Source of the DNA: Bacteroidota bacterium
GTDB taxonomy: Bacteria; Bacteroidota; Bacteroidia; UKL13-3
Assembly (NCBI GenBank): GCA_013298895.1
Contig: JAAFJM010000003.1
Coordinates: 186,001 to 250,000 of the forward strand
DNA length: 64,000 nt
Direction: 5' to 3'
The notes under the pieces were generated by a model, which was not told where the DNA came from, searched no databases, and saw nothing but the letters and a program-made list of their open reading frames with translations. The position numbers were made by a program, and so were the translations under genes. Positions 9,552 through 52,819 of this stretch are shown one piece after another. The first letter of the stretch is position 1. Each line of letters opens with the position of its first letter.

Positions 9552-10268
9552 ATGGAGCATTTAAAAATTGCGAGCGATAATTACGTGGCGTTCACGTTTT
9601 TTATCGGAACAATGGCCATGATGGCCGCATCAGTTTTTTTCTTTTTTGAGTTAGGTAATACTTCTCAAAAATGGAGAACATCAGTTTTAGTTTCAGGGCT
9701 AATTACCTTTATTGCAGCAGTACACTACTACTACATGAGAGGTTACAATTTAGCCACAGGAGATTCACCAACATTTTTTAGGTATGTTGATTGGATTTTA
9801 ACAGTGCCTTTGATGTGTGTTGAGTTCTACTTAATTACCAAAAAAGCAGGTGCTAAAGTTTCATTATTATGGAAACTAATTGCAGCCTCACTAGTAATGT
9901 TAGTTACAGGCTATTTTGGTGAAACAATCGACAGAGGAAACAGTGTATTATGGGGTGTTATTTCAGGAGCAGCTTATTTTTACATTGCTTACCTAATTTG
10001 GTTTGGCGAAGTAGCTAACTTAGCACAATCTGCAGGACCACAAGTGGCAAAAGCAACAAGAGTTTTGGCTTGGTTTGTATTAGTTGGATGGGCAATTTAT
10101 CCTTTGGGTTACATTTTAGGAACTCCAGGTGGATTATTCGGAATTCAATTGGTTTCAGATCCTGCTGCAGCTTCGCATGCCATGGATATTGTTTACAATA
10201 TTGCAGATGCCATCAATAAAATTGGATTTGGTTTAGTTATTTACTCTTTAAGTAGAAACGAAGACTAA
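9552..10268 (+). CDS. Proteorhodopsin, light-driven outward proton pump, green-tuned
   Basis: A 238-residue, seven-helix rhodopsin. Helix C reads FRYVDWILTVPLMCVEFYL and gives the proton-pump triad Asp80 (acceptor), Thr84 and Glu91 (donor), equivalent to 97/101/108 of marine proteorhodopsin. Met88 sits at the colour-tuning position 105, which in flavobacterial pumps goes with green absorption. His58 in helix B (AAVHYYYMR) matches the conserved His partnering the acceptor. Helix G has DAINKIGFG with Lys223 as the retinal Schiff-base lysine. Length is normal for the family. The gene is followed by a strong hairpin and then by the retinal-forming CrtY-Blh fusion on the same strand. It should export protons across the inner membrane in light. 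Confidence 0.96.
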   Translation: MEHLKIASDNYVAFTFFIGTMAMMAASVFFFFELGNTSQKWRTSVLVSGLITFIAAVHYYYMRGYNLATGDSPTFFRYVDWILTVPLMCVEFYLITKKAGAKVSLLWKLIAASLVMLVTGYFGETIDRGNSVLWGVISGAAYFYIAYLIWFGEVANLAQSAGPQVAKATRVLAWFVLVGWAIYPLGYILGTPGGLFGIQLVSDPAAASHAMDIVYNIADAINKIGFGLVIYSLSRNED

Positions 10269-10284
10269 ATTTTTACTATCAATC

Positions 10285-10325
10285 AAAAAAAGGGATTCTA
10301 TGATTTTTATAGATTCCCTTTTTTT
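10285..10325 (+). terminator. Rho-independent terminator after the rhodopsin gene
   Basis: Arms of 17 bases (10285-10301 and 10309-10325) pair with one mismatch around a 7-base loop, with GGGA/TCCC in the middle and an A tract opposite a T tract, so it could work in both directions. It lies between the rhodopsin stop and the start of crtY-blh. The second gene may be reached by read-through or have its own promoter. Confidence 0.85.
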
Positions 10326-10340
10326 ATAAAAAAATGCATC

Positions 10341-19200: not shown

Positions 19201-20268
19201 AAATACAGCATTAGGATTCCCTTCTCCGTTTAGGAATAATGTATCAGTGAGCGCAGTTGCAGCATTTAATAAATAGGTATGAGGTGTAAGTACTAAATTT
19301 TTGCCAAATTGAGCTGGAAAAAGTAATTCAATATCAGCAGGTAAGGCGTTCAAATAAGTATATACTGTGTTTAAATCAGAAGAACATTGTGTAGTTGAAA
19401 GATCTGGAATTGGATGAATTACACCATTTACAAATAAAGGATTAAAACCCGTTGTTAAACCACTATTGGTTCCAACATCTCCAATAATATGTGTTACACC
19501 AGTATTAGTAACAGGTCCAATTGAAGAGAATAATGCATAATTAGCAGTTGTTCCTAATGGTGGAGCCATTGGCCCTGTTAATAATGGACTTCCACAACCA
19601 ATTGGAGTGTAAGCCATAACACCAGTAACAGAAATTGCGCCAGCAGTAGTAAAAGCTCTACCTTCTAAGGTATCGCCTGCACTCATATTAATAGCAGCAT
19701 TATTGGTTATAATAGTACCACGCATGGTAACACCTGTTGCCATATTGGTTAAACCTTCAATTTTCCAAAAAACATTACAAGCCAAAGCACCATTAATTAA
19801 TTTTACTTTAGCATTTGCAGCTGCCGAAAAAGCCCCTTGTAGTTTAAATATAAATACTGCATTGGGGTTTCCTTGTGCATTTAAAGTTAATACATTAGTT
19901 AATGTAGATGCACCTGATACTGAGTAAACACCAGGTAATAATGTATCTCCACCAAGAGACGGTGAAGGAAAAAAGGTAGCAGTTGTTCCTGCTAATTGAT
20001 TATAAGCAGATAACACATCGGTAGAACAAGCGGCAGTAGCCAAATTTTGTGATTGCATGATGCCATTTACATTTCCGAAATTTGTGCTTGCACCTACATT
20101 AGAACCTACATTTCCTGTTACTTGCGAAATGCCATTATTAGTAATTGCACCTACTGAAGTAAATAATACAAAACCTGCGGATGTACCTAAAGTTGGTGCC
20201 TGACCATAATTTATTTTGGGTAAAAATAATAGGGCAATAGCTATTAAATAGAGTAGTTTATTTTTCAT
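16213..20268 (-). CDS. Giant adhesin with two ice-binding (DUF3494) domains, Ig-like repeats and T9SS type B sorting domain
   Basis: A 1351-residue secreted protein. I chose the ATG at 20268, which begins the signal peptide (LLYLIAIALLFLPKINYGQ), over an upstream in-frame ATG at 20325. Two DUF3494 ice-binding-type domains follow at about 25-235 and 237-445, marked by AGFVLFTSVGAITNNG, GNVGSNVG, GVYSVSGA, NPNAVFIFKL and RGTIITNNAAI, and by matching words in the second copy. Eight Ig-like units of about 92 residues (core TYQWRRGN, NISGV, DTATNYNVII) and one shorter PKD/Ig-like unit lead to the gliding-type C-terminal domain (GFSPNSDGINDLFVI, YNRWGSLVF, LPIGTYFYII, LKGTIYLNK). It heads an operon with PorP/SprF and an OmpA protein. 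It probably binds ice or another surface. Confidence 0.9.
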   Translation of the reverse strand: MKNKLLYLIAIALLFLPKINYGQAPTLGTSAGFVLFTSVGAITNNGISQVTGNVGSNVGASTNFGNVNGIMQSQNLATAACSTDVLSAYNQLAGTTATFFPSPSLGGDTLLPGVYSVSGASTLTNVLTLNAQGNPNAVFIFKLQGAFSAAANAKVKLINGALACNVFWKIEGLTNMATGVTMRGTIITNNAAINMSAGDTLEGRAFTTAGAISVTGVMAYTPIGCGSPLLTGPMAPPLGTTANYALFSSIGPVTNTGVTHIIGDVGTNSGLTTGFNPLFVNGVIHPIPDLSTTQCSSDLNTVYTYLNALPADIELLFPAQFGKNLVLTPHTYLLNAATALTDTLFLNGEGNPNAVFVIKIFGALSTSTYSNVVLKNGTQSRNVYWLVNGAVSINDYSIFRGTIIANNGAINFAIGSLLDGRALTTVGAVNVNAMTANAPNAPFVIIPPTAKLVCLGDTARFIVSASGTNLTYQWRKGNVNLINSLTISGVTNDTLTIFPATYADTSDNYNVVIMGNVNPNDTTLGVALKINSPIITSEPVNKTACLGSNITFSVTTSGSGITYQWRKGSINLINGGNIQGATSDTLKINGITINDTAANYNVIITGICAPKDTSNNVSLYINNRIITINPSSQTVCFGSSARFVTRATGSGLTYQWRRGNVNLVNGLNISGVTKDTLRFNATTILDTATNYNVIISSTCSLNDTSSNVSLNINLPLAISINPSSQTVCLGSSARFVTRATSSGLTYQWRRGNINLVNGLNISGVTTDTLRFNNTTILDTATNYNVIISSTCSLRDTSANVSLNINLPLAISINPSNQAACLGSSARFITKATGSGLTYQWRRGNVNLVNGLNISGVTTDTLRFNATTILDTATNYNVIISSVCSVKDTSSNVSLNINLPLAISINTSNQTACLGSSARFVTRATGSGLTYQWRRGNINLVNGLNISGVTTDTLRFNSTTILDTATNYNVIISSICSAKDTSANVSLNINLPLVININPSNQTVCLGSSARFVTRATGSGLTYQWRRGNVNLINGLNISGVTTDTLRFNVTTILDTATNYNVIISSVCSLRDTSVNVSLNIITAPIITTEPINQIACAGSSVSYAASVSGNGLNYQWRKDGVDLVNGVNISGANANILTINQVALSDTSLNYYLVVTNSCGVTDTSVRVSLKVNPIPLAIASSNSPICEGKPINLVAQTVAGGTYSWSGPNGFTSSAQNPNITSALLADSGNYTLVVTQNGCNSILVNLNVIVKTCVDITLSIPEGFSPNSDGINDLFVIQGIENYPTLSVNIYNRWGSLVFEASPYLNNWNGKSNSGVTVGGDDLPIGTYFYIIDLGNGSPILKGTIYLNK
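17030..18409 (-). repeat. Five near-identical 276-base tandem repeats inside the adhesin gene
   Basis: The word CGCCATTGGTAAGTTAATCC (with one or two changes in some copies) recurs near 17197, 17473, 17749, 18025 and 18301, a period of exactly 276 bases. Each unit codes one Ig-like domain. Units outside this block are much more diverged, so these five look recently amplified or homogenised. Confidence 0.9.
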
Positions 20269-20593
20269 TATGAAGTTATTATTTGTGAAAGAATTTTCAC
20301 ACTGTAAAGGTGCTTGAATTAGCATCCTAAAGACTTACATCAATAACTTGTATGTTTATATAAATCACACTTTGATCCTATAAAAGAAAATTTAGTTGTA
20401 CTATTTCTTTATTAAACAAATTAATACACTACAATTGAATACATATAAGATACAATATTTGGTATTTTATCTAATAAAATAAACTTATAAAAAGAAAATT
20501 ATTTATAAGTAAAAATTACTTTTATTAAAAGTTACAAATGTTGAGTACAATTATTATACGGAAATTAAATCAATAAAAGAAGTTTGGAATAAA

Positions 20594-33208: not shown

Positions 33209-34858
33209 ATGAAACGTTTACTAATTTCAACAATGGCCTCACTTTTAATTTTAGGTGCTTCGGCCCAAACAGATGAGCGCAAATGGAATATTGGCCTTTT
33301 GGCTGGTACCAGCGAATATGAAGGCGATTTAGGAAATCGATTTTTATATTTTAATAACAAAACCATTGATAATATTGATAAAACATATACTGTTGGCTTA
33401 AGTTTAACCCGTTATTTAAACTCAACTTTCGATTTTGGAGCAATGGGTACCTTTGGTTCATGGGGATATTACGAACCAGGTCAACCGGGTTTTAGAGCAG
33501 ATATGTTGCAAATTAATGGTCATTTTAAATTTAAATTCAACAATGGCTTTTTGTTAGAGAAAAACACATTATTTCAACCCTACTTATTAGTAGGTGCTGG
33601 AGTTACGCGTTATCAAGGAACTTCTACCATTGAAGGGCAAGATGCAACCGCCATACTTGGTGGTGGATTTAATGTTCGCTTAAGTGGAGTAATTGGCATT
33701 AACTACCAAGCTACTTATGGATATTTATTAACCAGCGATGCTAGAGATTTACAACCTGCAAGTGGCATGAACGATGCATTTTTAATGCATACCATTGGGT
33801 TAAACTTTAATTTAGGTGTGGCCTACGATAAAGATGGTGATGGGGTTCACGATAAAAAAGATAAATGTGAAAATACACCACCAAATGTAAAAGTTGATAA
33901 AACAGGTTGCCCAGTTGATAGCGACAAAGATGGTATAGCAGATTATTTAGATGCTTGCCCTAGTGAATCAGGAACAGCTAATGGCTGCCCCGATAATGAT
34001 AAAGATGGCGTGGCTAATAAAGATGACCAATGTCCAGAAACAGCAGGTTTAATTGCATTAAATGGTTGTCCTGATGCTGATGGTGATGGAATTATTGATA
34101 GCAAAGACAATTGTCCTAATGTAAAAGGTAGTTTAGCCCTAGCAGGTTGTCCTGATAGAGATAATGATGGAGTAGCAGATGAAATTGATGCATGTCCTGA
34201 TGTGTATGGTTTAGCAAGTTTTAAAGGTTGTCCTGATAATGATAACGATGGAATTGAAAACAGCAAAGACCAATGCCCTGATTTAAAAGGAACAATTGCT
34301 ACCAATGGTTGCCCTGATACCGACAATGATGGTGTACATGATGGAATTGATAAATGCCCACGTATAGCAGGAAGTTCAAACCACAGTGGTTGCCCCGATT
34401 CAGATAATGATGGTGTGTATGATGATATGGATAGATGTATAACTATTCCAGGAACAAGTGCTAACCAAGGTTGTCCTGAAGTGAAAAAAGAGGTAAAACA
34501 ATTATTTGAAAAAGCATTACAAGGTATTCAGTTTGAAACTGGTAAAGCTGTTATCAAATCAAGTTCAAACTCTATCTTAAATTCAATTGTAAAAGTAATG
34601 AACCAAAACCTTAGTTATAAATTATTAATTGGTGGCCATACCGATAATGTAGGCGATGATGAAATGAACATGACCCTTTCGCAAGACAGAGCAACAGCAG
34701 TTTCAAATTACTTAATTAGCAATGGTGTTGATCCATTAAGAGTAACAGCTACAGGATATGGAGAATCTACTCCAGTTGATGTAAATACATCAGTAAAAGG
34801 TAGAACCAGAAACCGCAGAGTAGAACTTAAAGTTGAGTTTTTAGAAGTGGTAAAATAA
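33209..34858 (+). CDS. OmpA-family porin with thrombospondin type-3 calcium-binding repeats
   Basis: A 549-residue protein. It has a signal peptide (STMASLLILGASAQ), an eight-stranded outer-membrane barrel at about 20-205 (NIGLLAGTSEYEGDLGNRF, GINYQATYGYLL), then six to eight thrombospondin type-3 repeats at about 208-430 (DKDGDGVHDKKDKC, DNDKDGVANKDDQC, DADGDGIIDSKDNC and so on) whose Asp-rich loops bind calcium and whose Cys pairs link adjacent units. The C-terminal OmpA domain at about 440-549 (FETGKAVIKSSSNSIL, IGGHTDNVGDDEMNMTLSQD) binds peptidoglycan. It is usually among the most abundant outer-membrane proteins. Three hairpins follow the stop. Confidence 0.93.
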   Translation: MKRLLISTMASLLILGASAQTDERKWNIGLLAGTSEYEGDLGNRFLYFNNKTIDNIDKTYTVGLSLTRYLNSTFDFGAMGTFGSWGYYEPGQPGFRADMLQINGHFKFKFNNGFLLEKNTLFQPYLLVGAGVTRYQGTSTIEGQDATAILGGGFNVRLSGVIGINYQATYGYLLTSDARDLQPASGMNDAFLMHTIGLNFNLGVAYDKDGDGVHDKKDKCENTPPNVKVDKTGCPVDSDKDGIADYLDACPSESGTANGCPDNDKDGVANKDDQCPETAGLIALNGCPDADGDGIIDSKDNCPNVKGSLALAGCPDRDNDGVADEIDACPDVYGLASFKGCPDNDNDGIENSKDQCPDLKGTIATNGCPDTDNDGVHDGIDKCPRIAGSSNHSGCPDSDNDGVYDDMDRCITIPGTSANQGCPEVKKEVKQLFEKALQGIQFETGKAVIKSSSNSILNSIVKVMNQNLSYKLLIGGHTDNVGDDEMNMTLSQDRATAVSNYLISNGVDPLRVTATGYGESTPVDVNTSVKGRTRNRRVELKVEFLEVVK

Positions 34859-34873
34859 AATTTAAAACTTACG

Positions 34874-34906
34874 ACACTTCCTCGCTATCAACTTGCGAGT
34901 AAGTGT
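34874..34906 (+). repeat. Stem-loop 1 in the 3' region of the OmpA gene
   Basis: ACACTTCCTCGC (34874-34885) pairs with GCGAGTAAGTGT (34895-34906) with one mismatch. A second hairpin, ACAGCC-TCC-GGCTGT, follows at 34912-34926. No T run follows either one, so they may stabilise the 3' end of this probably abundant mRNA. Confidence 0.5.
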
Positions 34907-34937
34907 ATAAAACAGCCTCCGGCTGTATCATTAAACC

Positions 34938-34972
34938 AAAACCGCTTTAGCCAAAAACTAAAGCGGTTTTTT
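34938..34972 (+). terminator. Rho-independent terminator of the OmpA/TSP3 gene
   Basis: AAAACCGCTTTAG (34938-34950) and CTAAAGCGGTTTT (34958-34970) form a perfect 13-base stem with a 7-base loop, followed by TT. It is the third hairpin in a row after the stop at 34858. Confidence 0.85.
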
Positions 34973-35202
34973 AGTTAATGATAACTTGTATACATGAAGT
35001 AAGAAATAATAATGATAGAAAAATAAAGAGTCTTTTAATTGGTTTGATTATGAAAAAAAATAGGATATTTTTGTTAAATAAAGTTTGACACCAATCAAGT
35101 TCATCTCTCCAAAAATAGTCAGATATACCTGATAAAATCAGGGTTATAAAAGTTAGCAACAATAATCTGTAGACAGTAAAAATCTTAAATGACAGCAAAA
35201 AA

Positions 35203-37330: not shown

Positions 37331-38893
37331 ATGACATTCCACTATTTTACAGACAAACAAATAATACCACTTTACATCAGTGCTGCTCTTATAATAGTTT
37401 CCATTTTATTTTTTAATAATGGTAAGACAAGAACTAGCTTGGTTCTTTTATTTGTTGGTTCTTTAACACTAGGTTTTTTTATGGCAAATCTAGATCCTTT
37501 CCTAATTCTGTGGGATGAACAATACCATGCATTGGTTGCAAAAAACTTACTATTAAATCCATTAAAACCTACACTTTATTCAAATCCATTATTAGAATAT
37601 GATTACAGGAATTGGACTGGAAATTATATTTGGTTACACAAACAACCTCTTTTTTTGTGGCAAATAGCCATTAGTTTGAAATTATTTGGTTTCAACGCGC
37701 TAGCTGTAAGACTCCCAAGCATTATATTACATTCAGCTGCAGTATTATTGATTTATCGTATTGGAAAAATTTCGGCTACCGAGAGAATTGGTTTTTACGG
37801 TGCACTATTTTTTGCTTTAGCCTATTTTCCTCTTGAATTAGTGGCAGGTAGATACTCAACTGATCATAATGACCTTTCGTTTCTATTTTACGTAACAGCT
37901 AGCATTTGGGCATGGTTTGAATACCAACATACAAACAAAAAATACTATTTAATTTTAATAGGATTATTTTCAGGTTGTGCAGTGCTTGTAAAATGGTTGG
38001 TAGGTCTACTAATTTATGCGATTTGGTTTCTCACAATTGGAATCAATGATAAACTGAATTGGCTAAAACCAAAATCATATATACCAATATTGGTGTCGTT
38101 ACTCATAACTCTTTTGGTATTTCTTCCTTGGCAAATTTATATACTATTCAATTACCCTTTTGAATCTAATTATGAATTTGCTTACAATACAAAACATTTT
38201 TTTGAACCTTTAGAAAATCATGGAGGTGATATATGGTTTCATATTAAAGCCTTGAGCGATATATATGGTTCTGGTGACGCTGTTCCCTATTTGTATTTAA
38301 TTGGACTGATAATTTTAGTAAAGAATTTAAATTTTAAAATATATCGTTATGCAATAGTATTAGCCATTGTAATTACTTATGTGTTTTATTCAATTGCATC
38401 AACAAAAATGATATCATTTTGTATTATAGTTTCTCCATTAGCTTTTTTAGGGCTTGGTAGTTTAATAGATTCTTCAGCAACCTTATTAAGTTCCAAAATA
38501 AAGTATGCAAAATTTGAATCAATTTTCAGGCCAATCATTCTAATTACTGTATGTGCATTCCTCATTAATATTACTAAAATTCAAAATTATCATACTAATT
38601 GGAAGCCTCATGATAATTGTAATAGAATGGCTGAATTGAATGAAATGGAATTTATTAAAAAACTAAAGATTCAATTAGGTTCAGAAAATTATGTTGTATT
38701 CAATTCAAACGTAAGAGTAAAGGGACATATACCCATCATGTTTTATACCGATTATATTGCTTATGATATTATTCCAACCGAAAAACAAATCGAACAAATA
38801 GTATCAAAAAAATATAAAATTGCTATCTTGGATAATAAGAAATTGCCGGATTATATAAACAACAACAACGAGATAGTTAAAATCAAATTTTGA
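37331..38893 (+). CDS. GT39-type membrane glycosyltransferase (ArnT/PMT-like)
   Basis: A 520-residue protein with about 10-12 membrane helices. An early luminal loop carries the acidic motif LILWDEQYHALVAKNLL (Asp-Glu at about residues 62-63), then NYIWLHKQPLFLWQIAISLK, FGFNALAVRLPSI, and AGRYSTDHNDLSFLFYVTAS. These are the hallmarks of GT-C family 39 enzymes, which move a sugar from a polyprenyl-phosphate donor onto lipid A or protein. A C-terminal periplasmic domain of about 100 residues ends the protein. It stands alone upstream of the polyketide operon, 260 bases away on the same strand. The acceptor is unknown. Confidence 0.85.
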   Translation: MTFHYFTDKQIIPLYISAALIIVSILFFNNGKTRTSLVLLFVGSLTLGFFMANLDPFLILWDEQYHALVAKNLLLNPLKPTLYSNPLLEYDYRNWTGNYIWLHKQPLFLWQIAISLKLFGFNALAVRLPSIILHSAAVLLIYRIGKISATERIGFYGALFFALAYFPLELVAGRYSTDHNDLSFLFYVTASIWAWFEYQHTNKKYYLILIGLFSGCAVLVKWLVGLLIYAIWFLTIGINDKLNWLKPKSYIPILVSLLITLLVFLPWQIYILFNYPFESNYEFAYNTKHFFEPLENHGGDIWFHIKALSDIYGSGDAVPYLYLIGLIILVKNLNFKIYRYAIVLAIVITYVFYSIASTKMISFCIIVSPLAFLGLGSLIDSSATLLSSKIKYAKFESIFRPIILITVCAFLINITKIQNYHTNWKPHDNCNRMAELNEMEFIKKLKIQLGSENYVVFNSNVRVKGHIPIMFYTDYIAYDIIPTEKQIEQIVSKKYKIAILDNKKLPDYINNNNEIVKIKF

Positions 38894-39153
38894 AGCAACA
38901 AATTCCTATAACATCACAAATAATTAATTTATACTTTCTATAATTACTTACAGGGTTAACCATTTCATAGAAAGTATTGCTACACTTCCTATAACAACTC
39001 CTTCTCCCAATATGTAAAATATATAAAAATTATAAATTCTTGTATAAGTTTTAAACTTCCAATTTCAAGCATATTTGTTGATTAAGAAGCCATTTTAAAT
39101 TATTTTTTTCCATTTCAACCTTTATACATTTACCAATGCATGTATATTGAATT

Positions 39154-40071
39154 ATGATAGAAGTGGTTAAGTTTGTACTCATGAAATCCCAAATAAAAAA
39201 AACGGTGTTTAAAAATACTGTTCAATTACTTCGAATTCCATTTTCATTGTTGTTGATGCCTTTATTTATTCTTGCACTAAGTCAAAATGAAATAAATGGA
39301 TATACAGCTGTTATTAGTTTTATCATTATTCATTTATTGGTTTATCCTGCGAGTAATGGATACAATAGTTATATTGATAAGGACGAGAGCAGTATTGGAG
39401 GAATAGAGAAACCACCATTGCCAACTCTTCATTTGTTTTATGTTACCATAGTTTTAGATTTTTTAGCCATTATTTCAGCATTTTTATTTGTAAATATACT
39501 TTTTTCATGTAGCATTTTCGTTTATATTTTGGCTTCGCGGGCTTATAGTTCCAAACAAATTCGTTTAAAAAAATATCCAATCATTGGATTTTTAATCGTT
39601 GTTATTTTTCAAGGTGGATTTACTTATATGATGAGTGTAATAGGAATTACAAATGAATCGTTTGTTTTTTCAAGTACTAATATTTTATTACTGTTTGCAT
39701 GTAGTTTTCAAATTGCAGGAGCTTATCCATTAACTCAAATTTATCAGCATGAGGCCGATTTAGCCGATGGTGTAAAAACCTTAAGTTATAAATTAGGATA
39801 TAAAGGCACTTTTATTTTTACTGCTATCATGTTTGGTTTGTGTAATGTATTTTATTATTTGTATTTCGAACAAATTGGAAAATCAAATAATTTTTATTTG
39901 ATACAACTTTTTTTTATTCCTATTGTTATATATTTCGTGTGGTGGTTTTTTAAAACCATTAATAACGAAAATGAAGCTAATTTTAAAAACACCATGCGAA
40001 TGAATTTAATAGCCGCCATTTGCATGAATACTTGTTTTATTATTTTATACTTAACCAACCGTTTATTTTGA
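39154..40071 (+). CDS. UbiA-family prenyltransferase
   Basis: A 305-residue membrane protein with about eight helices. The first Asp-rich region reads SNGYNSYIDKDESSIGGIEK (residues about 66-85), close to the NDxxDxxxD site of UbiA enzymes. The second is IYQHEADLADGVKTLSYKLG (about 196-215), matching the DxxxD site. It should join a prenyl diphosphate to an aromatic ring at the inner membrane. The start may be this ATG or one nine codons later at 39181. Its stop TGA overlaps the TTG start of the type III polyketide synthase gene (TTGA), so it heads a coupled four-gene operon. The aromatic acceptor is probably the polyketide made by the next gene. Confidence 0.85.
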   Translation: MIEVVKFVLMKSQIKKTVFKNTVQLLRIPFSLLLMPLFILALSQNEINGYTAVISFIIIHLLVYPASNGYNSYIDKDESSIGGIEKPPLPTLHLFYVTIVLDFLAIISAFLFVNILFSCSIFVYILASRAYSSKQIRLKKYPIIGFLIVVIFQGGFTYMMSVIGITNESFVFSSTNILLLFACSFQIAGAYPLTQIYQHEADLADGVKTLSYKLGYKGTFIFTAIMFGLCNVFYYLYFEQIGKSNNFYLIQLFFIPIVIYFVWWFFKTINNENEANFKNTMRMNLIAAICMNTCFIILYLTNRLF

Positions 40072-41156
40072 GTTACCTATCAGCAATTGAAACTGCAGTT
40101 CCCCAATACCGATATCATCAAAATGATTTGGCTGAATTTTTCCAAAATACGGCAGAGGATATCTCTATTAAACGTAAAATGAAAATGGTAGCGCATAAAT
40201 CAGGAATTCAAACACGTTATTCCGTGTTAGCTGATTTTGGAAACCATCCTTCAGATTTCACCTTCTTTGAAAAAAATTGGGATTTATCTCCAGCTGTTTC
40301 ATTAACCAAACGAATGGAAATTTATAAAACGAATGCTTTGCAACTCTCTATTGCTGCTATTCAAAAGATTGCAAACTTTGAATCTATAAAAAATTCCATT
40401 ACACATATTATAACGGTTACATGCACAGGTCTTTTTGCTCCTGGCATGGATATCGAGTTGATTCAAGCACTGAATTTAAATCCGAAAACCCAACGTAGTA
40501 GTATCAATTTTATGGGTTGCAATGCAGCTATTATTGCCTTGAATCAAGCCAATTCTATTTGCAATAGCCAATCAGATGCAAAGGTATTAATTGTATGTAC
40601 AGAGTTATGTACCATACATATTCAAACTAGTTTTACTGATGATTACTTGCTTTCGAACTCCTTGTTTAGCGATGGAAGTGCAGCAGCAATAGTAAGTTCA
40701 AAGCCACAAAATTTGTCTGAATATCCCGATTTAGAAATTACTTCATTTGATTCTTTAATTATTCATGAAGGCCAAAACGACATGGCTTGGCAACTTTCTG
40801 AATATGGTTTTTTAATGAGTTTATCTGCTTATATTTCTAATTTAATCAATGGAAATATTTCAAAAATGCTAACTGATTTAAACATTCAAAAAGATAAGAT
40901 AAACTTTTGGGCCATACATCCTGGAGGTAAAAAAATATTGGATGATTTTGCAAAGGTGTTTGATTTTAAAAACAATGAATTGGCAACGGCTTATCATGTT
41001 TTAAAGAATTATGGCAATATGTCTTCACCAACGATATTATTTGTGTTAAAAGAATTGATGGAGAATAATAAAAAGAAAAGAAGTGGAGATACCATATTTA
41101 CTGCAGCTTTTGGACCAGGTTTAACAATTGAAACCATGCAGTTGGCCTATGTTTAG
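40068..41156 (+). CDS. Type III polyketide synthase (chalcone/alkylresorcinol synthase-like)
   Basis: About 362 residues. Thiolase-fold synthase with all three catalytic residues: Cys in TVTCTGLFAPGMDIELIQAL (about residue 119), His in WAIHPGGKKILDDF and Asn in NYGNMSSPTILFV. The family extends a fatty acyl- or aryl-CoA starter with malonyl-CoA and cyclises it to a resorcinol or pyrone. I start it at TTG 40068, which gives the normal N-terminus (SYLSAIETAVPQYRYHQ). An upstream ATG at 40020 would overlap ubiA by 52 bases. The methyltransferase gene starts inside its last codons. Alkylresorcinol-type lipid is the likely product, with chain length and cyclisation unknown. Confidence 0.92.
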   Translation: MSYLSAIETAVPQYRYHQNDLAEFFQNTAEDISIKRKMKMVAHKSGIQTRYSVLADFGNHPSDFTFFEKNWDLSPAVSLTKRMEIYKTNALQLSIAAIQKIANFESIKNSITHIITVTCTGLFAPGMDIELIQALNLNPKTQRSSINFMGCNAAIIALNQANSICNSQSDAKVLIVCTELCTIHIQTSFTDDYLLSNSLFSDGSAAAIVSSKPQNLSEYPDLEITSFDSLIIHEGQNDMAWQLSEYGFLMSLSAYISNLINGNISKMLTDLNIQKDKINFWAIHPGGKKILDDFAKVFDFKNNELATAYHVLKNYGNMSSPTILFVLKELMENNKKKRSGDTIFTAAFGPGLTIETMQLAYV

Positions 41157-41835
41157 AATAAGAAGTTCTCAAAAAGAATTATTAGATGCGGAGGTAATTC
41201 CTGATGCTGATTTGTTCCAGAATTTAAAGGAATTGCATGTCATTAATTCGTTATTAGGTGGTTATCAAATTTCACTAAACGCTCTTAAAAAAATTGATTT
41301 TAAAAACCAAACTTATACTTTAGTTGATATAGGAAGTGGCGGAGGAGATACTCTGAAAACTATCTTTAAATGGGCTCAAAAAAACAAAACCAATTTGAAG
41401 TTATATGGCATTGATTTAAAAAGTACTTGCGTAAATTATGCTAATCAAAATGAACCCAATGCATCATTGAGTTTTATATGTGATGATTATAGAAATATTC
41501 ATTTGCATGTAAATGAAGTATCCATTATTCATGCTAGTTTATTTTGTCATCATCTTACATCTTCTCAAATTATTGAATTGATTCAGTTTGCTATAAAACA
41601 TAAAGCCATTCTAATTATAAACGATTTAGAAAGAAATAGATTTGCCTATTATGCTATTAAATACCTTACAAAATTTTTTTCAAAATCGTACCTAGTAAAA
41701 AATGATGCGCCCCTTTCTGTTTTACGCGGCTTCAAAAAAAAGGAGTGGATTGAAATGATTCAATTGGCAGGTGCAAAAAATTATTCAGTTAAAAACAAAT
41801 GGGCATTTAGACACGAAGTAATTGTTTATGAATAA
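41149..41835 (+). CDS. SAM-dependent methyltransferase of the polyketide operon
   Basis: A 228-residue class I methyltransferase. SAM-binding motif I is VDIGSGGGDTL (about residue 59), followed by LYGIDLKSTCVNYANQN as the acidic strand-2 contact, and later IIHASLFCHHLTSSQIIELI and LIINDLERNRFAYY as post-motif strands. It resembles methyltransferases linked to bacterial type III polyketide synthases, which methylate a ring carbon or hydroxyl. The ATG at 41149 overlaps the synthase stop by 8 bases. It also overlaps the FAD gene at its own end, so the operon is tightly coupled. The regiochemistry is unknown. Confidence 0.9.
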   Translation: MFRIRSSQKELLDAEVIPDADLFQNLKELHVINSLLGGYQISLNALKKIDFKNQTYTLVDIGSGGGDTLKTIFKWAQKNKTNLKLYGIDLKSTCVNYANQNEPNASLSFICDDYRNIHLHVNEVSIIHASLFCHHLTSSQIIELIQFAIKHKAILIINDLERNRFAYYAIKYLTKFFSKSYLVKNDAPLSVLRGFKKKEWIEMIQLAGAKNYSVKNKWAFRHEVIVYE

Positions 41836-42952
41836 TCAATCCTCCAAATACGATTGTGCCATTATTGGCGGTGGTTTGGCTGGCCTAACCTTGTCAATTC
41901 AATTGGCTCAAAATGGTCATCAAGTTATATTATTCGAAAAAAATAAATACCCATTCCATAAAGTTTGTGGTGAGTATATTTCATTAGAAAGTTGGGATTT
42001 TTTAAACAGTTTAGGATTGCCAATGGCAGAACTATCATTGCCAATAATTAATACCATTCATGTTTCAGCACCAAACGGATTTATCATTCATTCTCCTTTA
42101 GATTTAGGTGGTTTTGGCATTAGCCGATTTTATTTAGATAATTTATTGTTCAAAAAAGCGAAAGAATTAGGTGTTACTGTTTTGGACAATACCAAGGTTT
42201 TGGATGTTAAACAACATGGTGAACTATATGTAGTTTCTACCAATGATGACAGCTACCAATCAAAATTAGTTTGTGGTAGTTTTGGTAAAATTAACCCACC
42301 ATTTATAGCACAACAAAAAGTAACCGAAAAAGGAAAATACATTGGTGTAAAATACCATATCAAAACAGATTTACCTGCTCATATTATTGAATTGCATAAT
42401 TTTAAAGATGGTTATTGTGGCATTTCAAAAGTTGATAATGATACAAATTGTTTGTGTTATTTAACTACTTCTAAAAATTTACGATTACACCAAAATGACA
42501 TCAAACGTTTGGAAGAAAATGTTTTATATGAAAATCCATATTTAAAAAAGTACTTTACTGAATCAACCTTTTTATATGAAAAACCATTAGTCATAAGTCA
42601 AATAAGTTTTGAAAAAAAGCACACTTACCAACATGGAATAATTATGCTTGGAGATTCAGCAGGGGCTATTGCTCCATTATGCGGAAACGGCATGAGCATT
42701 GCCATGCGTTCCTCCAAAATATTGGCTAAACAAATTGATTCTTTTTTAAAAAATAATATTTCGAAGATCGAATTAATCCAAAATTATACCGATGAATGGA
42801 ACCAAAATTTTTCATCTAGAATTAAAATTGCTTATTACCTGCAACACTTATTTGGAAAAAAAACCACCACATATTGGAGTTTAAAACTATTAAATTATTC
42901 TCCTAAATTATTCAAACGAATAATTTCCTTAACACATGGTAAAAAATTTTAA
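41828..42952 (+). CDS. FAD-dependent oxidoreductase (hydroxylase/geranylgeranyl reductase-like)
   Basis: A 374-residue flavoprotein. The N-terminal dinucleotide fold is DCAIIGGGLAGLTLSIQLAQ, with ILFEKNKYPFHKVCGEYIS as the second contact. The C-terminal FAD motif is IIMLGDSAGAIAPLCGNGMS. This plan fits group A aromatic hydroxylases and geranylgeranyl reductases. The ATG at 41828 overlaps the methyltransferase stop by 8 bases. The frame also has a TTG six bases earlier. Given the operon, ring hydroxylation toward a quinone, as in Streptomyces SrsC with SrsA and SrsB, is the best guess. Prenyl-chain reduction is the alternative. Confidence 0.9.
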   Translation: MNNQSSKYDCAIIGGGLAGLTLSIQLAQNGHQVILFEKNKYPFHKVCGEYISLESWDFLNSLGLPMAELSLPIINTIHVSAPNGFIIHSPLDLGGFGISRFYLDNLLFKKAKELGVTVLDNTKVLDVKQHGELYVVSTNDDSYQSKLVCGSFGKINPPFIAQQKVTEKGKYIGVKYHIKTDLPAHIIELHNFKDGYCGISKVDNDTNCLCYLTTSKNLRLHQNDIKRLEENVLYENPYLKKYFTESTFLYEKPLVISQISFEKKHTYQHGIIMLGDSAGAIAPLCGNGMSIAMRSSKILAKQIDSFLKNNISKIELIQNYTDEWNQNFSSRIKIAYYLQHLFGKKTTTYWSLKLLNYSPKLFKRIISLTHGKKF

Positions 42953-43021
42953 AAAAATCCTGATTACATTATACATGCTTTGAAAGATGACTTTCAATTT
43001 TAGTTAAAAAACAAAATTAAT

Positions 43022-43675
43022 TTAAAAATCTAGCATTTGTTTATTACTAATGATTTGAGTTCCTTTTTTATTATTTGTAATTGCTAGCCAATACATTGCT
43101 TTAGCTACTTGTTGGCTTTCAATTGCAGCAAAGTTTTTCATACTTCCAAACATCAATTTTGATATTGGTTTCATAATAATTTGCATTATTTTTTCACCTA
43201 ACCTAAATTCATTTCTATTGCCTAATAACAAGGAAGGACGAAAGATATAAAAGGAGTTGAAACCAACCTTACTAATGGCTTCTTCCAATTCACGTTTTAC
43301 TTGATTATAAAAAATTTTAGAACTTGAATTAGCTCCTAAAGCTGATACTAAAAAAAAGTTTTTTGATCCATTTTTAAATGTTTCGTTTGCTAAATTTAAA
43401 CAGTAATCATAATCAACTTTTTTAAATGCTGCTTGTGAATCAGCTTTTCTAATGGTGGTTCCTAAACAACAAAATACATCATCGGCTTTTAATTTATCTG
43501 CTATTAATGGTAGGTTATCAAAGTCAACAATTATTTGAATCAATTTTGGTGAATGAAAAGGAATTTCCTTTCTAACCAAAGCAATTGTTTTATCGTATGC
43601 CTCACTTTCTATTAAATTGAATAATAACTGCTTTCCAATTAATCCTGTTGCGCCTGCAATAATTGCCGTTTTCAT
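43022..43675 (-). CDS. NAD(P)-binding short-chain reductase-like protein (TIP30/NmrA-like)
   Basis: A 217-residue Rossmann protein. The opening AIIAGATGLIGKQLLFNL carries the Gly-rich nucleotide loop. Later motifs are DDVFCCLGTTIRKADSQAAF, NFFLVSALGANSSSKIFYNQ with the Tyr-x-x-x-Lys equivalent (FYNQVK), and YIFRPSLLLGNRNEFRLGEK. These are typical of the atypical SDR group containing TIP30. The substrate is unknown. It converges with the polyketide operon, with 69 bases between stops, and its promoter region faces that of the AIM24 gene. Confidence 0.85.
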   Translation of the reverse strand: MKTAIIAGATGLIGKQLLFNLIESEAYDKTIALVRKEIPFHSPKLIQIIVDFDNLPLIADKLKADDVFCCLGTTIRKADSQAAFKKVDYDYCLNLANETFKNGSKNFFLVSALGANSSSKIFYNQVKRELEEAISKVGFNSFYIFRPSLLLGNRNEFRLGEKIMQIIMKPISKLMFGSMKNFAAIESQQVAKAMYWLAITNNKKGTQIISNKQMLDF

Positions 43676-43787: not shown

Positions 43788-44579
43788 ATGGCAAACAATC
43801 ATGAAATTGACTACCGTTTATTTGGTAGCGAAATGCAATGTGTAGAAATTGAATTAGACCCCAATGAAACTGTTATGGCAGAGCCTGGCAGCTTCATGAT
43901 GATGAATGATGGGGTTCAAATGCAAACTATTTTTGGAGATGGAAGTCAAGATAACGGAGGAATGTTAGGCAAATTATTTAGTGCTGGTAAACGACTACTA
44001 ACTGGTGAAAGTTTATTTATGACTGCTTACACCAATATGGGTCAAGGAAAAAAGCAAGTAACTTTTGCAGCACCATATCCAGGAAAAATTATTCCATTAG
44101 ACCTTATGCGTTTAGGTGGTAGAATAATTTGTCAAAAAGATTCATTTTTATGCGCAGCAAAAGGAGTTGCAGTAGGAATTGAATTTCAAAAAAAATTAGG
44201 TACAGGTTTATTTGGTGGTGAAGGTTTTATCATGCAAAAACTAGAAGGAGATGGAATGTGTTTCGTTCATGCAGGTGGACATGTGGAAGAACGAGAATTA
44301 TTCCCTGGTGAAATGTTGAAAATAGATACCGGATGTATTGTTGCGTTTACAAAAGATGTTGACTATGATATTCAATTTGTAGGTGGAATAAAAAATACAC
44401 TTTTTGGCGGAGAAGGAGTATTTTATGCTACCTTACGTGGTCCTGGTAAAGTTTGGATACAAACATTACCAATAAGTCGTTTAGCAGGAAGAATCCTACA
44501 ATATGGAACTCGTGGTGGTAAAGAACAAGGTAGTATATTAGGTGGACTAGGAAACCTACTTGACGGTGATGGGTTTTAA
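43788..44579 (+). CDS. AIM24 / TIGR00266 family protein
   Basis: A 263-residue soluble protein of beta-rich AIM24 type. It has YRLFGSEMQCVEIELDPNET, AEPGSFMMMNDGVQMQT, GKRLLTGESLFMTAYTN, KQVTFAAPYPGKIIPLDL, a triplet of Gly-rich turns (FGGEGFIMQKLEGDGMC), and a final GPGKVWIQTLPISRLAGRI. The family (also the yeast mitochondrial AIM24) is widespread, its function unclear. A role in membrane or organelle biogenesis has been proposed for relatives. Single gene with a strong terminator at 44650-44686. Confidence 0.93.
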   Translation: MANNHEIDYRLFGSEMQCVEIELDPNETVMAEPGSFMMMNDGVQMQTIFGDGSQDNGGMLGKLFSAGKRLLTGESLFMTAYTNMGQGKKQVTFAAPYPGKIIPLDLMRLGGRIICQKDSFLCAAKGVAVGIEFQKKLGTGLFGGEGFIMQKLEGDGMCFVHAGGHVEERELFPGEMLKIDTGCIVAFTKDVDYDIQFVGGIKNTLFGGEGVFYATLRGPGKVWIQTLPISRLAGRILQYGTRGGKEQGSILGGLGNLLDGDGF

Positions 44580-50104: not shown

Positions 50105-52819
50105 TTATTTCACTCCCATTTTGGCTGCGCCAAATTCTAATATAGTATCAATAAACTCGTAAGGTTTATAATTGTTTAAAGCACATTGATGGAAAATAGC
50201 CGTAGCTGGCGTCATGCCTGGTAATGAGTTAATTTCAATAATTACTACCTCTACCCTATTTTTATCGTAAATTCTTACAAATGCATCAATGCGGCAGTAA
50301 CCTTCCACATTTAGTGCTTTAGCAGTTTTCTTCAACACCTCTTGTACTTTTTTACTTATTTCGGCTTGTGCTTTTGCATTTTTACTAAACCTACTTGGCG
50401 TAATGTTTTGACCTTGTCCGGCTAAAAACTTTTCTTCTAACGACAATATTTCGCCTTCGGCCAATGTTTCGCTAGGTTCAAACATTTCATAAATTAATTT
50501 ACTGCCTTTAAAATGTGTAATTAAGCCTCCGGTAACTTCTAAGAAGTGTTTGGCATTTCCTTTTTCAACAAATTTTTCTACTAAAAAATAAGCTTTCATT
50601 GGAAACTCTTCTTTTGGTTTCAAACCCAATCTTTCTGCTAATTCAGCCTCCATTATTTCTAGTGGACGGAAAACTCCTTCCGCGTAATTAATCAAATCTT
50701 GGCGGGTTTTAATTTTTTTAACAGCACTGCTACAGCCATCATCAGCTGGTTTTGCAATTAAAGGATAGCCAATAGTTTCCACCTTTTTAATAACCTCTTC
50801 TACATTTTTTTTCCAATCTTTTTGCTGAACCAACATATGTTCAGCAACTAGAATTTTGTGCTTTTTAAGCAATTCGTTGGTATCGTATTTGTTAATGGTA
50901 ATTCGGCTGCTTTCAACCCCACTTCCATTGTAAGGAATTTTTAGTTTGTTTAAATACGTTTGAACTGTTCCATCTTCACCCGGACGACCATGCAATGCGA
51001 TAAACACTGCATCGGCCATTTTTTTCAAATCTTTGTATTCAATTTTTTTAGGAGCAAATAATTGACTTTCAGCATTGCCATATTTATCAATAATAGGTTT
51101 GCATTCAGCAATAATTTTTTCCATAATTGGCAAGCGTTTATAACTGCTCAATTTTTCTTTTATATCATCAGCATTGTCTTTTAACATAACATTAACCGGC
51201 AATAACCAAAGTTCGTGTGCGCTGTCATTGCCTGTTACAAAAACCGGAAAAGGTTGGTATTTAGCCGATGAAGCTAGTTTTTCATAAATATTTCTTCCAC
51301 TCTCCACCGAAATATGACGCTCGGTAGAATAACCACCCATAAATACCGCCACACGCTTTTTAGTGCTTTTTTGTTTTTTATTGCTAGCAATTTTTGCATC
51401 TAAATGATTTAACAATTCGATGTGATGAAAATGAACTTGTTGCGAGTAAGCTCTTTCAGCTAATGAAGTACGAATGATATAGGTTAAAAACTGCGATGGA
51501 TTTAAACCAATTTCGGCAGCTTGATGAAAAAAGAAACTCGAAGGCATCATACCACTTGTAGTATTTGGATCGTTTAAAAACAACTCACCTTGGTTGTTTA
51601 TAAATCCATCAATACGAGCATAAACATGAAAATTAAAGAAGGTAAACAACAGCTCACATGCTTTTCTAATTTCATCTATTTTGCTTTCAGCAATATCAAT
51701 TGGGGTAATTTTTCGGCTTAAACCTGGTAAATATTTACTGCGGTAATCATATACTTCTTTGCCTTTAACTATTTCGGTTGGAGGCAATGCTACTGCGGTT
51801 CCATCTTCATTTTTTAATACTATACAACTGAACTCTCTGCCCTCAATAAATCCTTCAATTAAACATTCAGTTTCGGAGTAAATACTTTCTAAACGGATTT
51901 CTGATTTTTGATTTTTGATTTTTGATTTGGTCGCTGAGCTTGTCGAAGAGCCAAATTCTTCGTCAAACAGTGTCCATAAATCGTCAGGGTTATAAGTTAA
52001 TTCTTTTTGTCCATTTACAGTAACTATAGCTGGTAAACCAATTCCTTCTTTTACATCAGTAATTTTTTGAATGAATTGTGTTTTAGCTTTTTGGTCTAAG
52101 TTTATCCATTCACTAGCTGACACCTGTTGTATAAAAAACGATTTTAAAACCGCTTGTTCAAATTGCTCAAAATTATCGGCACTAATTACCGAAACACCCA
52201 CCGAACTACCTTGATTAGCAGGCTTTATTACAAATGGAAAACCAACTTCATTGATTACTTTTTTATAAATATTTTTTAAATCAGGTAATTGGTTTTTGGT
52301 AAACGAAAAGTATTTAGGAACATTCATTCCCGCACTTTTCATTAATTGTTTTTGCAGGCGTTTGTTCATTCCCAAAGCACTGGGCATAATGCCCGAACCA
52401 CTGTACGGAATATCCATAAACTCCAACAAACCTTGTATGGTGCCATCTTCGCCATTGGCGCCATGTAAGGCTAAAAAAGCAAAATCAATCAACCCTTTTA
52501 ACTCTTCAGGTTTAATGGTTTTTCCTAATTTTTTTATTAATGATTTACCATTATCCTCATGAGCAGCGGCCAAATTTTCGGCATACACTTGTACTTCGGT
52601 TTTTTGGTTTTTTAAAGCAGAAACAGGCGGATAAAAATCGCGGATAGAACCTTTGTAAATATACTCCCAATCTAGCAAAACAAAGTTGTTAAAGCTATCC
52701 ACAAAAATGGGAATGGCTTCAAAAAGCGTTTTATCTAAATTATCGTAAACGGTGCGTCCACCTGCAAAACTTACCTCGCGCTCGCGGCTATTGCCACCAA
52801 AAAATATACCTATTTTCAT
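50105..52819 (-). CDS. Tandem D-alanine-D-alanine ligase (two ATP-grasp ligase units in one chain)
   Basis: A 904-residue protein with two complete Ddl-like halves. The first (1 to about 475) has IFFGGNSREREVSFAGGRTV, LHGANGEDGTIQGLLEF, PFVIKPANQGSSVGVSVIS and NDPNTTSGMMPSSFFFHQ. The second (about 483 to 904) begins RVAVFMGGYSTERHISVESG and has IALHGRPGEDGTVQTYLNKL, PLIAKPADDGCSSAVKKIK and EINSLPGMTPATAIFHQ. The second has the usual Glu-x-Asn Mg contacts. The first has Asp-Pro-Asn, so metal binding may differ. Single Ddl enzymes are about 300-370 residues. The dimer may be built in one chain, or one half may be regulatory or act on a different dipeptide. A repeat-like 20-residue linker sits in the first half. 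Confidence 0.88.
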   Translation of the reverse strand: MKIGIFFGGNSREREVSFAGGRTVYDNLDKTLFEAIPIFVDSFNNFVLLDWEYIYKGSIRDFYPPVSALKNQKTEVQVYAENLAAAHEDNGKSLIKKLGKTIKPEELKGLIDFAFLALHGANGEDGTIQGLLEFMDIPYSGSGIMPSALGMNKRLQKQLMKSAGMNVPKYFSFTKNQLPDLKNIYKKVINEVGFPFVIKPANQGSSVGVSVISADNFEQFEQAVLKSFFIQQVSASEWINLDQKAKTQFIQKITDVKEGIGLPAIVTVNGQKELTYNPDDLWTLFDEEFGSSTSSATKSKIKNQKSEIRLESIYSETECLIEGFIEGREFSCIVLKNEDGTAVALPPTEIVKGKEVYDYRSKYLPGLSRKITPIDIAESKIDEIRKACELLFTFFNFHVYARIDGFINNQGELFLNDPNTTSGMMPSSFFFHQAAEIGLNPSQFLTYIIRTSLAERAYSQQVHFHHIELLNHLDAKIASNKKQKSTKKRVAVFMGGYSTERHISVESGRNIYEKLASSAKYQPFPVFVTGNDSAHELWLLPVNVMLKDNADDIKEKLSSYKRLPIMEKIIAECKPIIDKYGNAESQLFAPKKIEYKDLKKMADAVFIALHGRPGEDGTVQTYLNKLKIPYNGSGVESSRITINKYDTNELLKKHKILVAEHMLVQQKDWKKNVEEVIKKVETIGYPLIAKPADDGCSSAVKKIKTRQDLINYAEGVFRPLEIMEAELAERLGLKPKEEFPMKAYFLVEKFVEKGNAKHFLEVTGGLITHFKGSKLIYEMFEPSETLAEGEILSLEEKFLAGQGQNITPSRFSKNAKAQAEISKKVQEVLKKTAKALNVEGYCRIDAFVRIYDKNRVEVVIIEINSLPGMTPATAIFHQCALNNYKPYEFIDTILEFGAAKMGVK
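51894..51953 (-). repeat. In-frame repeat-derived insert within the first ligase unit
   Basis: On the minus strand about 60 bases read GGCTCTTCGACAAGCTCAGC, then GACC, then three to four copies of a seven-base word, AAAAATC. It codes a Ser/Lys-rich segment (GSSTSSATKSKIKNQKSEIR) that breaks the ligase sequence between DEEF and LESIYSETE. TTCGACAAGCTCAG is a word commonly dispersed in intergenic DNA of many bacteria. It looks like a recent insertion that kept the frame. Confidence 0.6.

Follow-up and report, generated by a model that had tools for sequence, protein, structure and literature searches.

A UbiA-led type III polyketide synthase operon in Bacteroidota, probably for a prenylated phenolic membrane lipid

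Four genes arranged head to tail on the + strand of a Bacteroidota genome encode a UbiA-superfamily membrane protein, a type III polyketide synthase (PKS), a methyltransferase (MT) and an FAD-dependent enzyme. We hypothesize that this operon makes a membrane phenolic lipid, namely a polyketide phenol that is hydroxylated, methylated and prenylated, and put the probability of this reading at about 0.6. The genes lie at positions 39154-42952 of the window, by which we mean the whole stretch of 64,000 nucleotides that was analysed.

Operon layout

An earlier note on this DNA had described a four-gene block here, translated as a single coupled unit with overlaps of 4-8 bases. Four open reading frames were indeed found on the + strand, and with starts placed by homology the overlaps between successive genes are 4, 8 and 8 bases. 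The features, with the evidence for each, are:

38911..39153, + strand: upstream non-coding stretch, presumed promoter or leader of the operon (blastn block shared with locus L001)
39154..40071, + strand: UbiA-superfamily membrane protein of a variant subfamily (Pfam, predicted fold, motif residues)
40068..41156, + strand: type III polyketide synthase with a TTG start and the triad C151-H284-N317 (Pfam, alignment)
41149..41835, + strand: class I SAM-dependent methyltransferase (Pfam, NCBIfam, identity to relatives)
41828..42952, + strand: FAD-dependent enzyme, most likely a phenol-ring hydroxylase (Pfam, NCBIfam, slot replacements)

All four proteins score above their Pfam family cut-offs. The mechanical ORF starts (TTG 40020 for the PKS, 41128 for the MT and 41822 for the FAD enzyme) are too early judged by homology, which places them at TTG 40068, ATG 41149 and ATG 41828; at the position of TTG 40068, Met is present in at least 90% of aligned relatives of the PKS.

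Window positions 38911-42955 align as one block to positions 6788-10888 of L001 at 90% (blastn), and a second blastn match, at 89%, joins positions 33701-35030 to the start of L001; part of the neighbourhood is thus common to the window and this nearest relative. A PMT_2 gene at 37331-38893, considered as a fifth member, was rejected: it has no tblastn match in 38 related loci and lies outside the conserved block. In these loci tblastn also matched neither of the two genes that follow the operon, at 43022-43675 and 43788-44579. In Pfam scans of eight flanking proteins from six loci, neither an acyl-CoA ligase nor any other source of starters turned up next to the operon; three of these proteins have no Pfam match, and the others are Band_7, DEAD helicase, CHU_C/SprB, MATE and HD proteins.

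Conservation of the block

The four-gene block recurs in 38 related loci, with PKS identities of 39-94%, and dN/dS is 0.07-0.14 for all four genes (window against L001 and L002); its recurrence is therefore more than chance. In 37/38 loci the gene immediately upstream of the PKS, on the same strand, is UbiA, the exception (L034) beginning inside the PKS; the MT follows the PKS directly in 36/38. The conservation in related genomes that the earlier note had left to be checked is thus borne out. At one locus, L015 of Dyadobacter arcticus, UbiA and PKS are fused in-frame into a single ORF of 655 residues.

The PKS carries the N and C domains of Chal_sti_synt (102 and 85 bits, Pfam), and its Cys-His-Asn triad, already reported as intact, is invariant (C151, H284, N317) among 37 aligned PKSs, the window's included. 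A PKS tree of 82 rows was built after L034, L038 and the duplicates L126-L131 had been dropped and the fused L015 had been trimmed to the PKS. The tree gives good support to both clade 1, with 27 rows, and clade 2, with 10, but does not resolve how the deeper groups branch under the midpoint root. A PKS encoded on a Psychrobacter plasmid groups among the Bacteroidota sequences of this tree, and no UbiA is annotated among its neighbours.

The association of UbiA with the PKS was surveyed in 395 Bacteroidota genomes, the two surveys being taken as the same genomes from their shared genome labels. Every UbiA-positive genome (60/60, a count uncorrected for phylogeny) also carries a PKS match, scoring 334 bits or more. 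PKS matches of at least 280 bits occur in 109/395 genomes (23 + 86 in the genome table) and profile matches at E <= 1e-30 in 179/395; some of the weaker ones, at around 200 bits, may belong to other type III PKS lineages. Besides the host, 25 genomes have a strong UbiA match; UbiA and PKS are adjacent and co-directional in 7 of these, adjacent and divergent in 12, and far apart or on other contigs in 6. Within one family, f25, UbiA is missing from 17/85 PKS-positive genomes and the PKS from 3/71 UbiA-positive ones, and the association is weak there (Fisher p 0.045) because the PKS is nearly universal. This weak association, together with the UbiA-less genomes, implies that the core can run without UbiA; a PKS-MT-FAD core without a UbiA neighbour is also found within and beyond Bacteroidota, and PKS, MT and FAD genes occur together on Deinococcus and Methylobacterium plasmids. 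Finally, UbiA and PKS distances correlate at 0.95 over 33 loci (five truncated loci excluded) and at 0.77 within clade 1 (24 loci), where other gene pairs give a similar 0.69-0.81, so the correlation is read as shared descent only.

The UbiA-fold protein and its altered metal site

The first protein of the operon matches Pfam PF01040 at 75.4 bits (E 5e-21). Searches of PDB sequences gave nothing usable (a single-sequence query matched nothing, and the profile hit just a dynein chain, at a chance-level E of 0.68), and the protein was therefore examined by fold. The best structural matches of its AlphaFold model (mean pLDDT 93) are UbiA structures, headed by 4tq4_A (Z 22.4, rmsd 3.4, 270 aligned); the values for 4od4_A are Z 21.9, rmsd 3.0 and 256 aligned. 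The fold spans residues 19-305 in the structure search with the predicted model, nearly the whole length. A plasmid sequence search with this UbiA gave no match and so reached no relative outside Bacteroidota.

The motifs N71-S72-x-x-D75-x-D77 and Q198-x-x-x-D202 are invariant in 66/66 sequences of this subfamily, from which the canonical NDxxDxxxD and DxxxD, the form present in E. coli UbiA, are absent. Two canonical metal-site Asp are thereby lost, position 79 being unconserved and position 198 being Gln in all 66. No earlier description of an NSxxDxD/QxxxD UbiA subfamily was found, in literature searches not aimed at the motif. The host genome has three further UbiA-family genes, which we read as MenA-, COX10- and DGGGP-synthase-like, so those roles do not call for the operon's UbiA; it also has two matches to polyprenyl synthases, which make a supply of prenyl donors probable.

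Such a rebuilt metal site may mean that the UbiA-fold protein is no standard prenyltransferase and uses another donor or catalyses another reaction, in which case the product would be an otherwise modified alkylhydroquinone. The replacement of both canonical motifs throughout the subfamily points this way, the more so as the host's MenA-like protein retains an Asp aligned with Q198, and the model also matches a UbiA-fold phosphoribosyltransferase, 8j8j_A (Z 17.7, rmsd 3.6, 247 aligned). However, the protein has the UbiA fold over almost its entire length, the canonical Asp motifs vary in other UbiA branches too (the host's COX10-like protein, with N-x-x-x-E-x-D-x-D, is likewise off the canonical form), and D77 could replace a lost Asp. 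We consider a departure from prenyl transfer rather unlikely, and prenyl transfer by this protein likely, though its altered motifs make that less secure.

Proposed pathway and product

In the proposed pathway, the PKS would extend a fatty-acyl starter with malonyl-CoA and cyclise the chain, probably to an alkylresorcinol-type phenol, a pyrone being the other candidate ring pattern; the phenol is suggested by the enzyme's family and by characterised clusters that share this core. The ring would be hydroxylated by the FAD enzyme to give a hydroquinone, the MT would add a methyl group on oxygen or carbon, and the UbiA-fold protein would then, at the membrane, attach an isoprenoid chain taken from a prenyl diphosphate. 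The prenylated, methylated resorcinol or quinone suggested by the earlier note thus stays the most likely product, sharpened by a most likely ring hydroxylation.

The product might instead be a polyketide quinone that serves as a respiratory or redox carrier, and not a lipid for structure or defence. Polyketide quinones reportedly act as electron carriers in mycobacteria, and hydroxylation, methylation and prenylation together are familiar prenylquinone chemistry; yet the host's MenA-like gene makes menaquinone probable already, and a carrier role seems unlikely to us.

The MT matches Methyltransf_25 (30.1 bits, Pfam), and its nearest NCBIfam model is PRK06202 at 117.7 bits, below that model's cut-off of 243; identity to the window's protein is 94% in L001, 82% in L002 and 58-67% in L003-L026. 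The FAD enzyme matches FAD_binding_3 (41.1 bits, Pfam) over residues 10-134. In clade 2 its slot is filled by FAD_binding_3 proteins, at 8 loci judged by position and length (the three run against Pfam match over the whole length of the family), and in family f25 by other monooxygenase-type FAD proteins (L126 scanned, five others by custom profile). Relatives of the FAD enzyme itself adjoin a PKS and an MT at L141 (372 bits) and L143 (353 bits), in genomes G226 and G316, neither of which gave a hit for this UbiA. Because aromatic-hydroxylase-type proteins fill the slot elsewhere, and because clear relatives stand beside PKS and MT where this UbiA is unmatched, the enzyme is most likely a phenol-ring hydroxylase. 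The same two observations weigh against a geranylgeranyl reductase saturating the prenyl chain, which we judge very improbable although the best NCBIfam match is to that superfamily (TIGR02032, 92.4 bits, below the cut-off of 158.8) and the agq product discussed below bears, by its name, a dihydrogeranyl group. An origin in menaquinone or ubiquinone biosynthesis, suggested by the domain resemblance of UbiA, MT and FAD hydroxylase to ubiquinone genes, is rejected because a separate MenA-like gene exists in the genome; besides, neither pathway includes a type III PKS.

Beyond this operon, we tentatively propose, as a more doubtful extension, that the NSxxDxD/QxxxD subfamily evolved as a dedicated membrane partner of Bacteroidota type III PKSs. 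This partner would receive the nascent phenol straight from the PKS and modify it with its altered active site, giving rise to widespread hybrid polyketide-isoprenoid membrane lipids. A UbiA subfamily tied to PKSs, unlinked cases included, predicts a concrete and testable lipid class, and an unlinked UbiA is a pathway gene that would escape tools confined to the surroundings of the PKS. The subfamily's altered motif is also a natural experiment on the metal ligands that UbiA-superfamily enzymes require.

Comparison with known systems

The srsABC operon of Streptomyces griseus encodes a PKS, an MT and an FAD hydroxylase in that order and yields phenolic lipids. The window has the same PKS-MT-FAD order in one operon, a likeness drawn by gene roles and order; Pfam families and gene order agree with the earlier note's picture of an SrsABC-like core led by UbiA. 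To our knowledge the srsABC cluster has no UbiA, and in this it differs from the window. S. griseus is reported to oxidise alkylresorcinols.

The hierridin cluster hidABC of Cyanobium and a planctomycete operon hold the same three core functions as the window, but mostly in the order MT-oxidoreductase-PKS, and a prenyltransferase has been reported in only one hierridin-like cluster, from Raphidiopsis. In the planctomycete study, four of the six PKSs tested gave alkylresorcinols in C. glutamicum, and a methyl was added when the Gimesia maris MT and oxidoreductase were co-expressed. The mycobacterial polyketide quinone cluster resembles the window by product type, its product being reported as a polyketide-derived quinone. 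The loseolamycin cluster of Micromonospora endolithica has UbiA and methyltransferase genes near a type III PKS in the part of the published gene list available; unlike in the window, MT and PKS are separated in that list by an acyl-CoA dehydrogenase, and it names no FAD hydroxylase.

Of the characterised systems known to us, the agq pathway of Actinoplanes comes closest. The agqABCD genes were reportedly described by Awakawa in 2011; agqB-D encode an MT, a hydroxylase and a UbiA. According to later papers, agqABCD of Actinoplanes missouriensis gives alkyl-O-dihydrogeranyl-methoxyhydroquinones, a type III PKS being encoded with agqB-D and the alkylresorcinol being then prenylated and hydroxylated; one such source, citing the agq paper, has a membrane prenyltransferase O-prenylating a small polyketide. 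The earlier note's statement that no Bacteroidota product of this gene set is characterised fits our searches of the open-access literature, which turned up none, and two papers listing type III PKS clusters of Bacteroidota give no product for them in the passages covered; the gene set itself, however, does have a characterised counterpart in agqABCD. As in the window, PKS, MT, FAD enzyme and UbiA are encoded together there, a likeness at the level of the described gene functions. The window, in contrast, comes from a different phylum; in the Bacteroidota loci the UbiA gene comes first and overlaps that of the PKS, with one fusion of the two in D. arcticus, and the UbiA metal motifs are altered from the canonical form. 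The gene set is thus of a known kind in Actinobacteria, from which the Bacteroidota version differs by its UbiA lead and altered motifs.

Layout and limits of the operon

The four open reading frames that the earlier note had placed at 39154-42952 are found there on the + strand, and the overlaps of 4-8 bases that it described measure 4 (UbiA/PKS), 8 (PKS/MT) and 8 bases (MT/FAD). Domain matches in the four products are, in order, to UbiA, to the N- and C-terminal domains of CHS/STS, to a class I methyltransferase (MT) and to a FAD-binding protein. Homology places the starts of the three downstream genes as follows:

40068, + strand: type III PKS, TTG start
41149, + strand: MT
41828, + strand: FAD enzyme

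The catalytic triad of the PKS, said earlier to be intact, is indeed so: C151, H284 and N317 are invariant in 37/37 aligned sequences, counting that of the window. Against the two nearest relatives, dN/dS is 0.07 to 0.14 across all four genes. Because 38911-42955 (4.0 kb) aligns as an unbroken stretch with L001, the nearest relative, at 90%, and because the PMT_2 gene 5' of this block and the two genes 3' of it find no match across 38 related loci, we take this block as the limits of the unit. The four-gene operon is real, conserved and coherent.

Conservation of the gene order

The 38 loci were obtained by scanning genome contigs with the window PKS, and without exception they are labeled as Bacteroidota or as lineages within it. 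UbiA lies immediately 5' of the PKS on the same strand in 37/38, the sole exception (L034) being a record that starts within the PKS; MT lies immediately 3' in 36 of the 38, L034 having none and the L038 record stopping within the PKS; in two of the 36, L006 and L029, the MT gene itself is truncated. The window-type FAD gene comes next in 25 of the 26 clade-1 loci (L001-L026), the missing one, L006, being cut by a contig end. In Dyadobacter arcticus (L015, 7119-9086) UbiA and PKS form a single unbroken in-frame fusion of 655 residues, which is known from one record and could possibly be a sequencing error; in three further Dyadobacter loci (L017, L021 and L025) the two genes are separate but overlapping.

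PKS, MT and FAD genes are also neighbors on Deinococcus, Methylobacterium and Psychrobacter plasmids, where no annotated UbiA occurs within the 11-13 kb around the PKS; UbiA therefore looks like an addition onto a widespread PKS-MT-FAD core. On the Psychrobacter urativorans plasmid (L146) the FAD and MT genes are on the strand opposite the type III PKS, which is placed among Bacteroidota sequences in the PKS tree (support 98/72) and may represent an inter-phylum transfer.

A UbiA subfamily tied to the PKS

The chief point of interest is a UbiA subfamily tied to the PKS across Bacteroidota. The PKS profile finds a match (E <= 1e-30) in 179, and the UbiA profile (E <= 1e-20) in 60, of 395 sampled Bacteroidota genomes; a PKS of at least 334 bits is present in all 60 UbiA-positive genomes, while at least 280 bits is reached in 109/395 (hypergeometric 4e-41 for co-occurrence, ignoring the relatedness of the genomes). 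Strong UbiA matches (at least 230 bits) occur in 26 genomes including the host, and in the other 25 the two genes are adjacent and co-directional in 7, adjacent and divergent in 12, on the same contig but 335-719 kb apart in 3, and on separate contigs in 3, where in a draft assembly they may still be close.

The 34 weaker UbiA genomes all come from one family, f25, and the subfamily motif is shared by 4/4 of the weaker UbiAs checked. At closer look, UbiA is present in 71 and PKS in 85 of the 92 f25 genomes: 68 have both, 17 PKS alone, 4 neither and 3 UbiA alone (Fisher p 0.045 for association). The UbiA-alone genomes are G402 (82% complete), G421 (62% complete) and G423, and stops interrupt the UbiA frame in G402 and G423. 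From these counts, UbiA is a PKS partner that can be lost.

The predicted model of the window UbiA (mean pLDDT 93) fits UbiA crystal structures far better than other folds: its top match is 4tq4_A (Z 22.4, rmsd 3.4, 270 aligned), against Z 14.2, rmsd 3.9 and 235 aligned for the first prenyl diphosphate synthase. The metal-binding motifs of the subfamily read N-S-x-x-D-x-D and Q-x-x-x-D, compared with NDYADRKFD and DRDDD in E. coli UbiA, and N71, S72, D75, D77, Q198 and D202 are identical in 66/66 sequences, made up of 37 contributed by the operon loci together with the window, 25 strong ones from other genomes (of which that of G194 has an in-frame stop) and 4 from f25. The fused L015 UbiA, omitted from this count, has the same residues. 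Since a COX10-like protein of the host likewise departs from the textbook motif, the altered motifs mark a subfamily, short of proving a new reaction. By our reading of sequences and neighbors, the three other UbiA-family genes of the host are MenA-like, COX10-like and DGGGP-synthase-like; its genome has two polyprenyl synthase matches and one chalcone-synthase N-terminal match, the window PKS.

The FAD position

In the clade-2 loci (L027-L038), whose PKSs show 39-45% identity, a different protein of 528-557 residues fills the FAD position in 8 loci, a count that leaves out L029, L034 and L038 (not visible or absent) and L032 (frame reaching the contig end). All three of these eight that were scanned match Pfam FAD_binding_3 across the whole domain, one with an aromatic-ring hydroxylase C-terminus above the cut-off and one with a phenol-hydroxylase C-terminus below it; the matches of one in NCBIfam, to monooxygenase and to MhpA-, RdmE- and phenol-monooxygenase-like models, all fall below cut-offs. 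A third type (381-406 residues) follows MT in six f25 genomes, and for the one copy scanned (L126) the matches are to monooxygenase and UbiH-type models, again below cut-offs. The window-type gene also stands beside MT and PKS in L141 and L143, whose genomes are outside the UbiA-hit set. Given these hydroxylase-type replacements and these two genomes, the target of the FAD enzyme is most likely the aromatic ring rather than the prenyl chain; against this counts the top NCBIfam match of the window protein, the geranylgeranyl-reductase superfamily.

Possible accessory genes and other genes

In six f25 loci (L126-L131) a protein of ~450 residues is encoded immediately 5' of the PKS; Pfam identifies the L126 copy as a MATE transporter, the other five are 55-74% identical, and the gene may serve product export. 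A protein family with a methyltransferase-like motif lies beside UbiA genes unlinked from PKS (L119, 6123-7034; L121, 6024-6818) and, in the three clade-2 loci L027, L030 and L035, 3' of the FAD gene; with no Pfam match and one weak NCBIfam match (19.7 bits), it is a candidate second methyltransferase. Adjoining another unlinked UbiA (L122, 6083-6889, genome G146) is a gene resembling phthiotriol/phenolphthiotriol dimycocerosates methyltransferase (216 bits; cut-off 300).

Elsewhere in the window are:

9552-10268: bacteriorhodopsin-like gene
within 9552-12359, after the preceding gene: lycopene cyclase and beta-carotene 15,15'-dioxygenase (BCD) in a single 672-residue ORF
16213-20325, - strand: large ice-binding-like protein carrying Ig-like domains plus a type IX secretion signal (CHU_C)
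50105-52819, - strand: two tandem D-Ala-D-Ala ligase units in a 904-residue ORF

Together, the genes in 9552-12359 seem to form a rhodopsin and retinal cassette in which one enzyme is a fusion. A PorP/SprF gene adjoins the ice-binding-like gene, and the two ligase halves share ~25% identity.

Proposed pathway and precedents

Most likely, the PKS would make an alkylresorcinol-type phenol, which the FAD enzyme would hydroxylate on the ring, MT methylate and UbiA prenylate. That no Bacteroidota product of this gene set is known to have been characterized, as the earlier note had it, holds as far as the searched open-access literature reaches; two Bacteroidota papers, in the parts available, list type III PKS clusters without a named product. 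Precedents exist. In a planctomycete study, 4/6 tested PKSs expressed in C. glutamicum gave alkylresorcinols, and co-expression of the Gimesia maris MT and oxidoreductase gave an extra methyl group; hierridin is a further precedent. In the agqABCD pathway of Actinoplanes missouriensis, as later papers cite it, alkylresorcinols reportedly undergo prenylation and hydroxylation, as we propose for the window operon.
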